From assembly GCA_021809925.1 (NCBI GenBank), contig JAJZJV010000005.1, positions 1 to 35,503 of the forward strand: a stretch of DNA of 35,503 bases, written 5' to 3'. How positions within the stretch are numbered: the stretch's first letter is position 1; the number at the start of each line of letters is the position of its first letter. Positions 23,545-35,452 of the stretch are shown here, piece by piece. The DNA is from Microcaldota archaeon. Lineage in GTDB: Archaea > Micrarchaeota > Micrarchaeia > Micrarchaeales > CABMGC01. The notes beneath the pieces were generated by a model. It worked only from the letters and a program-made list of their open reading frames with translations. It searched no databases and had not been told where the DNA came from. The translations under genes and the position numbers were made by a program.

Positions 23545-24159
23545 TTATTTCGCCTTCATCTCCATCTTAGCTTCAAAATCGGAGATATTATAGGTAAATT
23601 CATCGTTTGTCTTTATTAATCCTTTCTCTTTGAGATACTCTCTTGCGAGAAGATAATATATCAGGGCTAGAGACCTCCTTCCCTTGTTATTGCATGGAAT
23701 TACAAGATCAACAAACTTTATCCAGTTGTCTGTATCGCAAAGCGCTATCGTAGGGACGTTTGTCTTGCTTGCCTCCTTTACTGCCTGCCTCTCAGTCCTT
23801 GTATCGCTTATTAGTACTATCTCAGGTTCTGTGAAATCCTCTCTGTTTGGATTCGTAAATATTCCAGGCATGACCCTTCCTTGAAGAAGCTTTGCCTTTG
23901 TTATCTCTGTAAATTTCTGTGCTGCTGAGACTGCATATATTCTTGATGCTGTAACCGCTATCTCTTCAGGATTGTATTTTGAGAGGATCTTTGCTGCAAG
24001 CTTTATTCTCGTGTCTATCGTAGCGAGATCAAGCAGGTAAAGGCCGTCTTCCCTGACTTTGTATATGAATCTCTTCATTCCGGGAGTCTTGACCTTCGTC
24101 CCTATATGTATTCCTACTTCCAAATACTCTGACTGAGGTATCAACGTTTCGTTTTCCAC
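23545..24159 (-). CDS. rpsB: 30S ribosomal protein S2
   Basis: 204 aa; IGTKVKTPGMKRFIYKVREDGLYLLDLATIDTRI, GRVMPGIFTNP, PTIALCDTDNWIKFVDLVIPCNNKGRRSLALIYYLLAREYL. Confidence 0.97.
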   Translation of the reverse strand: MENETLIPQSEYLEVGIHIGTKVKTPGMKRFIYKVREDGLYLLDLATIDTRIKLAAKILSKYNPEEIAVTASRIYAVSAAQKFTEITKAKLLQGRVMPGIFTNPNREDFTEPEIVLISDTRTERQAVKEASKTNVPTIALCDTDNWIKFVDLVIPCNNKGRRSLALIYYLLAREYLKEKGLIKTNDEFTYNISDFEAKMEMKAK

Positions 24160-24176
24160 TTATACACCATTAAATA

Positions 24177-24274
24177 CGGGGTCGCCGAGATTTTCAGCTT
24201 TTTTGAATTCCCGTTAAAGACCTCGGGTCATGTGCTCCCTAAGCACAGAGCCTACCAGGCTAGCAGACGACCCC
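24177..24274 (-). tRNA. tRNA-Pro-like, anticodon read as AGG, with ~25-nt insertion in the T-loop
   Basis: Acceptor GGGGTCG/CGACCCC; D-region TAGCCTGGTA; anticodon stem-loop TGTGC-TTAGGGA-GCACA; T-stem CCGAG/CTCGG enclosing 32 nt; mature length 73 nt if 25 nt removed; lies between rpoN and rpsB. Confidence 0.75.
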
Positions 24275-24342
24275 GTGTTAAATATCTTTTGTGAGAGAAT
24301 TATTATATCTTGTTATAATGGCATCTCTCTCAAGTAAAATGC

Positions 24343-25927: not shown

Positions 25928-26026
25928 TGCGGGGGGTGAGATTCGAACTCACGCAAGCACTAAAGCTACAGGAATTTTGAAAGATTCCTCAATCCTGCGC
26001 ATTTGACCAAGCTCTGCCACCCCCGC
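25928..26026 (-). tRNA. tRNA-Leu (GAG) with a 12-nt intron at position 37/38
   Basis: Acceptor GCGGGGG/CCCCCGC; T-arm GTGAG-TTCGAAT-CTCAC; long variable arm; anticodon stem CAGGA/TCCTG; bulge-helix-bulge: central helix TTGA/TCAA, intron AATCTTTCAAAA at 25975-25986. Confidence 0.9.
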
Positions 26027-26816: not shown

Positions 26817-27353
26817 ATGGTCATCATGAAAACTGCATATAAATACTATGAATATCCTTCAATAGAACAGAAGGAAATACTTAATCGGCAGATGTTTCTT
26901 GCGAAGGAAATCTACAACGTGCTCCTTGAAAAATCAAAGGCATACTACAAGGAAACAAGAAAGACGCTAACAGAATACAGGATGAATAATTGGCTCATGC
27001 AAATTAAGAAGGAAAAGCCAGAATTTACAGAACTGCACTCACAGGGTCTACAGGATATCTCAAAAAGAATATCGGATGCTTGCGTGCATTTCTTCAGAAG
27101 ATCCAGGGAAAAGAAGCATGGAAAGAAAATAAACGTTGGTTTCTCAAGGCATAAGATGCCACAGTCTGAGGGAACAGTCTACTGCCAGGAATGCGGAATA
27201 TCAAAGGGGAAGGATCCGGGTGCAAGCATAAACATACTCAAAAGAGCTACCTCTGGACAAAGGGAAATGCCTGCCAGTGGAGATATTATAAGACCTTCAG
27301 CAATGAATGCTGATCTCGTTGAACGAGGAACCATATATGGTGTTTCACAATGA
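26817..27353 (+). pseudogene. tnpB: TnpB (IS200/IS605 family) internal-deletion derivative
   Basis: 178 aa; N-terminal OrfB-type HTH region (MKTAYKYYEYPSIEQKEILNRQMFLAKEIYNVLL) joined directly to C-terminal zinc-ribbon/RuvC-III region (YCQECGISKGKDPGASINILKRATSGQREMPASGD); central RuvC-I/II region missing. Confidence 0.8.
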
Positions 27354-35380: not shown

Positions 35381-35452
35381 TGGGCCCGCGGAGAATCGAA
35401 CTCCGGATCTTCACCGTGTGAAGGTGGCGTCTTACCACTCGACTACGAGCCC
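35381..35452 (-). tRNA. tRNA-Val (CAC)
   Basis: GGGCTCG/CGGGCCC acceptor; D-loop GTCGAGTGGTAAGAC; anticodon loop TTCACAC; T-arm CGGAG-TTCGATT-CTCCG; discriminator A. Confidence 0.93.

Follow-up and report, generated by a model that had tools for sequence, protein, structure and literature searches.

The tRNA-Pro(AGG) gene and its surroundings

The window, the 35,503-nucleotide stretch of contig JAJZJV010000005.1 analyzed here, carries on its minus strand at positions 24177 to 24274 a 98-nt gene for a pre-tRNA-Pro(AGG) with a mature length of 73 nt, which the analysis confirms as a real, working tRNA gene. From 24274 to 24177 it reads GGGGTCG-TC-TGCT-AGCCTGGTA-GGCT-C-TGTGC-TTAGGGA-GCACA-TGAC-CCGAG-(intron 1, GTCTTTAACGGGAA)-TTCAAA-(intron 2, AAAGCTGAAAA)-T-CTCGG-CGACCCC-G, with GGGGTCG/CGACCCC as the acceptor stem. 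The anticodon arm (24231 to 24247, minus strand) is read directly from the sequence as TGTGC-TTAGGGA-GCACA with a U32-A38 pair, and the anticodon AGG occupies 24238 to 24240 on the same strand with A34 at 24240; the stem and the AGG at positions 34-36 agree with a preliminary description of this DNA. All but one of 200 dinucleotide shuffles fold less well than the gene (z -3.2).

The unspliced gene elicits no call from ARAGORN, nor does the gene with intron 1 alone removed, and it does not match the Rfam tRNA model, even at E<=10. Both programs miss it because the two introns leave the T-arm CCGAG/CTCGG enclosing 32 nt rather than 7. Removal of both introns in silico yields a canonical 73-nt cloverleaf with the T-loop TTCAAAT, which ARAGORN identifies as tRNA-Pro(agg); the proline identity proposed earlier is thus upheld, while the suggested ARAGORN check succeeds only on the spliced sequence. 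As in other tRNA-Pro species, G35, G36 and G37 lie in the anticodon loop (TTAGGGA here; YTAGGG across the family). Charging with proline is predicted from orthology to tRNA-Pro(GGG) and from likeness to this genome's own tRNA-Pro(TGG) (L025), with which the molecule shares the GGGG start, a CTGCTAGYTTGGTAGGCT-type D-arm and G73.

A candidate TATA box, TATAATAA, is found on the minus strand at 24300 to 24307, approximately 26-33 nt 5′ of the tRNA start; its sequence is direct and its function putative. Downstream lies rpsB, encoding 30S ribosomal protein S2 (uS2; 23545 to 24159, minus strand; TIGR01012, E 1e-77), the start codon of which is 17 nt from the 3′ end of the tRNA (24159-24177). If the two share a transcript, the rpsB mRNA would begin where the 3′ end of the tRNA is processed. 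The order tRNA-Pro then rpsB is kept in the sister family.

T-loop introns and the splicing endonuclease

Intron 1 (14 nt; 24208 to 24221, minus strand) is inserted at position 53/54 and intron 2 (11 nt; 24191 to 24201, minus strand) at position 59/60. Each folds into a bulge-helix-bulge (BHB) motif with a 4-bp central helix and bulges at both splice sites: TGA-CCCG-AG^G ... CGGG-AA^T-TCA for intron 1, with the central helix CCCG/CGGG, and CCGAG-TTCA-AA^A ... TGAA-AA^T-CTCGG for intron 2, where the helix TTCA/TGAA lies inside the T-stem. The intron 1 motif is of the relaxed type, since its outer helix is short; the isolated intron 2 motif has a folding z of -2.8. When the four bases preceding the 5′ bulge were compared with those preceding the 3′ bulge, all four central-helix pairs were present in 30 of 34 parsed copies of intron 1 and in 84 of 85 of intron 2; two rows mis-parsed by the script (L105, L200) are genes with intron 2 as their single intron. 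Outside the central helix the introns differ in sequence and length between homologues, and intron 1 is either absent or replaced by other sequences with the same ending. Relatives carry both introns, either one, or neither. A single 25-nt intron was ruled out, as it would leave GTCAAAT or TGAAAAT as the T-loop and is incompatible with relatives possessing intron 1 only (L043, L045), intron 2 only (L039) or none (L134, L213).

Both BHB folds draw on T55-C56-A57 and are mutually exclusive. Removal of intron 1 probably precedes that of intron 2, because the folds compete for the same T-loop bases and because intron 1 lies between the T-stem and the T-loop. The genome also encodes, on another contig (C4), an epsilon2-type splicing endonuclease (full-length match to PDB 4fz2/9w2k; E 2e-153; 58% identity to the ARMAN-2 enzyme). 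Enzymes of this type have broad substrate specificity, relaxed BHB motifs included (PMC12397907, PMC6379350), and by analogy with its ARMAN-2 homologue this one would be suited to such T-loop introns. Excision of both introns in vivo is accordingly a prediction from the BHB motifs and the endonuclease gene.

Noncanonical tRNA introns are common in this genome: tRNA-Leu(CAA) (L029; C17, 12292-12388) also has a T-loop intron, and tRNA-Gln(CTG) (L030) has a disrupted D-arm. Within the window, a tRNA-Leu(GAG) gene (25928-26026, minus strand), upstream of and adjoining ribosomal-protein genes, has a 12-nt intron in its anticodon arm; it was missed by the default ARAGORN run and found by Rfam.

A34 as a family trait

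Genes for A34 tRNAs are described as absent in archaea (PMC11066159), as are all ANN anticodons (PMC8007984), and the preliminary description rightly regarded A34 as abnormal here; it overlooked the two T-loop introns and the replacement of G34 by A34 across a whole family. A DNA search showed 69 of 78 relatives to possess a homologue. Position 34 is A in 43/43 genomes of this family of ultrasmall Micrarchaeota (f1) with a readable gene. At the same locus upstream of rpsB, G34 (anticodon GGG) is found in 23 genomes of the sister family (f2), including ARMAN-2, and in two genomes of a third family (f20). The assignment of GGG to ARMAN-2 (L133), which among the relatives has been studied best, follows from the presence of the ARMAN-2 endonuclease, at 100% identity, in the f2 genome G053. 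A pattern scan of GTDB returned 73 records, of which 70 are this A34 tRNA, nearly all titled Candidatus Micrarchaeota; two others (L147, L209) fit the pattern by chance and are no tRNAs. A Methanomethylicota record (SJ3.Bin40, L176) is tRNA-Pro-like, with YTAGGG and an anticodon-loop insert, and could be read as AGG, or as UGG with a shifted intron.

Another genome of the genus (L031) and record JAMCSO010000033.1 (L168) each carry an identical copy of the gene; these copies, together with the conservation of A34 in all 43 family genomes and the 70 GTDB records, exclude a sequencing error at base 34. A shift of the anticodon by an intron is likewise excluded, since the anticodon arm is intact and both introns are confined to the T-loop.

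The A34 copies have the stem TGTGC/GCAYA or close variants, with a U-A or C-C combination at 32-38 (one U-G), whereas the G34 copies have GC-rich anticodon stems and U38. Since the sister and third family orthologues are GGG, this family replaced G34 by A34, and with it acquired the new stem and, at position 38, an A or C in place of U.

That the gene is a pseudogene or a decayed tRNA copy, which the preliminary description had allowed for, agrees with its being missed by standard tRNA finders. We consider this hardly credible: the anticodon arm, acceptor and BHB helices are conserved in more than 40 genomes while the intron sequences vary, and no tRNA-Pro(GGG) was found that could stand in for it in this genome or in the single-contig relative G029.

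Proline tRNAs and the use of CCC

The inventory of proline tRNAs proposed in the preliminary description reveals pattern matches for AGG, TGG (C20) and CGG (C24) only in this genome, which is 93% complete; the scan found no tRNA-Pro(GGG). The near-complete tRNA set of G029 likewise comprises AGG, TGG and CGG for proline, with G34 in the other four-codon boxes, which suggests that only the proline box was switched to A34. One family genome (G021) has, beside the AGG tRNA, a UGG/CGG-type paralogue with a GGG anticodon (L291; C84), possibly a re-evolved G34 or an assembly error.

CCC is the rarest proline codon in the family totals. It makes up 14% of proline codons in 38 genomes of this family versus 17% in 20 of the sister family, and relative to the other four-codon boxes CCC/CCU is approximately 0.77-fold lower (ln 0.26 lower). 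With codon counts from naive ORF calling, and kinship handled by genus means only, this shift gives t -1.9 and, for genus means, p 0.02-0.04, that is, a weak and borderline depletion. The same shift is absent in Ala, Val, Gly and Leu; Ser displays a similar t in the opposite direction.

CCC nevertheless continues to be used as proline. There are 97 CCC sites at positions where at least 80% of sister-family homologues have Pro, which rules out reassignment of the codon. CCC codons align to sister-family Pro nearly as often (0.64) as do the other Pro codons (0.71-0.72), from which we conclude that CCC specifies proline and is read.

How CCC might be read

We consider it probable that a functional, twice-spliced tRNA-Pro(AGG) replaced the ancestral GGG species and reads both CCU and CCC with an A34 that is most likely unmodified. 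The epsilon2 endonuclease would excise both T-loop introns from its transcript; the mature tRNA would read CCU well and CCC adequately, and CCA and CCG would be covered by the UGG and CGG species. There is precedent for such decoding: in Salmonella tRNA-Pro, mutation of G34 to A34 leaves the C-ending proline codon read almost as in wild type (PMC3711424), and unmodified A34 tRNAs function in Mycoplasma (PMC3711424, PMC11066159). Unusual wobble decoding is the best supported of the three options offered in the preliminary description; A34 editing finds no support and a non-functional gene is rejected.

Editing would require that an unrecognised archaeal enzyme convert A34 to inosine, the resulting tRNA reading CCU, CCC and CCA like the eukaryotic tRNA-Pro(IGG). 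Archaeal tRNAs do contain inosine, at position 57. The continued use of CCC would be in keeping with I34, as would the observation that outside this family almost every A34 tRNA undergoes editing (PMC11066159). The A34 on which such editing would act is encoded here, but the search for a TadA-like deaminase was negative: neither PF14437 nor PF00383, the profiles for TadA/ADAT, has a match in this genome (93% complete), and of the 18 family genomes with a completeness of 90% or more, 12 lack a PF00383 match, this genome and G003 (97% complete, 3 contigs) among them. Matches elsewhere are sporadic and occur in the G34 sister family too. The ADAR-type profile PF02137 had no match, but nor did it match any control, so that this result carries no weight. 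I34 would be expected to favour CCC, a codon that shows if anything a slight avoidance. We therefore regard inosine at position 34 as unlikely.

It is more improbable still that A34 reads CCU alone and that tRNA-Pro(UGG), with an unmodified U34, reads CCC by superwobble. The rarity and slight depletion of CCC are what such an arrangement would produce, but CCC persists at conserved prolines and the Salmonella A34 tRNA-Pro reads this codon.

Comparison with known systems

The archaeal tRNA-Pro(GGG), for instance that of ARMAN-2 (G053), shares the locus upstream of rpsB, the D-arm and the two T-loop intron positions, but has G34, U38 and a GC-rich stem where the A34 form combines a weaker stem with U-A or C-C at 32-38. 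Eukaryotic tRNA-Pro(AGG), which ADAT2/3 converts to IGG, has the same anticodon at the gene level and likewise A34 in place of G34 in the proline box; here, in contrast, no ADAT/TadA homologue was found, the proline box alone appears to have switched and the T-loop has introns. The unmodified-A34 tRNAs of Mycoplasma (Thr AGU; Arg ACG in TadA-less species) also combine a reduced genome, A34 without TadA and the use of C-ending codons; those are bacterial, whereas this tRNA serves proline, within a full three-tRNA proline set, on an archaeal ribosome. Relaxed BHB introns outside position 37/38 are known from tRNAs of ARMAN-2, which has the same epsilon2 endonuclease type, and of crenarchaea; by comparison the present gene has two tandem introns of 11-14 nt in one T-loop with folds that exclude each other.

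No earlier report of an archaeal A34 tRNA was found in a search of openly accessible journal papers. The T-loop introns would cause standard surveys to miss this tRNA. Approximately 70 species of one archaeal family now stand against the absence stated in reviews (PMC11066159, PMC8007984), and on balance we favour the view that here, for the first time among archaea, an A34 tRNA is obligate in a lineage: a family-wide replacement in the proline box led to unmodified A34 decoding CCU and CCC on an archaeal ribosome without a wobble deaminase. The A34 family and its G34 sister family, ARMAN-2 included, constitute a natural before/after pair, parallel to the eukaryotic switch from G34 to A34, with which the decoding range of unmodified A34 becomes testable on archaeal-type ribosomes.

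Other features

A tRNA-Val(CAC) gene near the end of the window (35381-35452, minus strand) has an identical copy at the start of another contig (C30, 5-76), the duplicate probably representing an assembly overlap. In G029, the 3′ part of a tRNA-Glu(TTC) (L351; C1, 654680-654830) has no matching 5′ half and may be a remnant, an integration scar or a gene with a D-arm intron. The window also contains an ORF (26817-27353, plus strand) that by eye resembles a TnpB-type transposase lacking its middle, the N-terminal part being joined to the C-terminal zinc-finger part.
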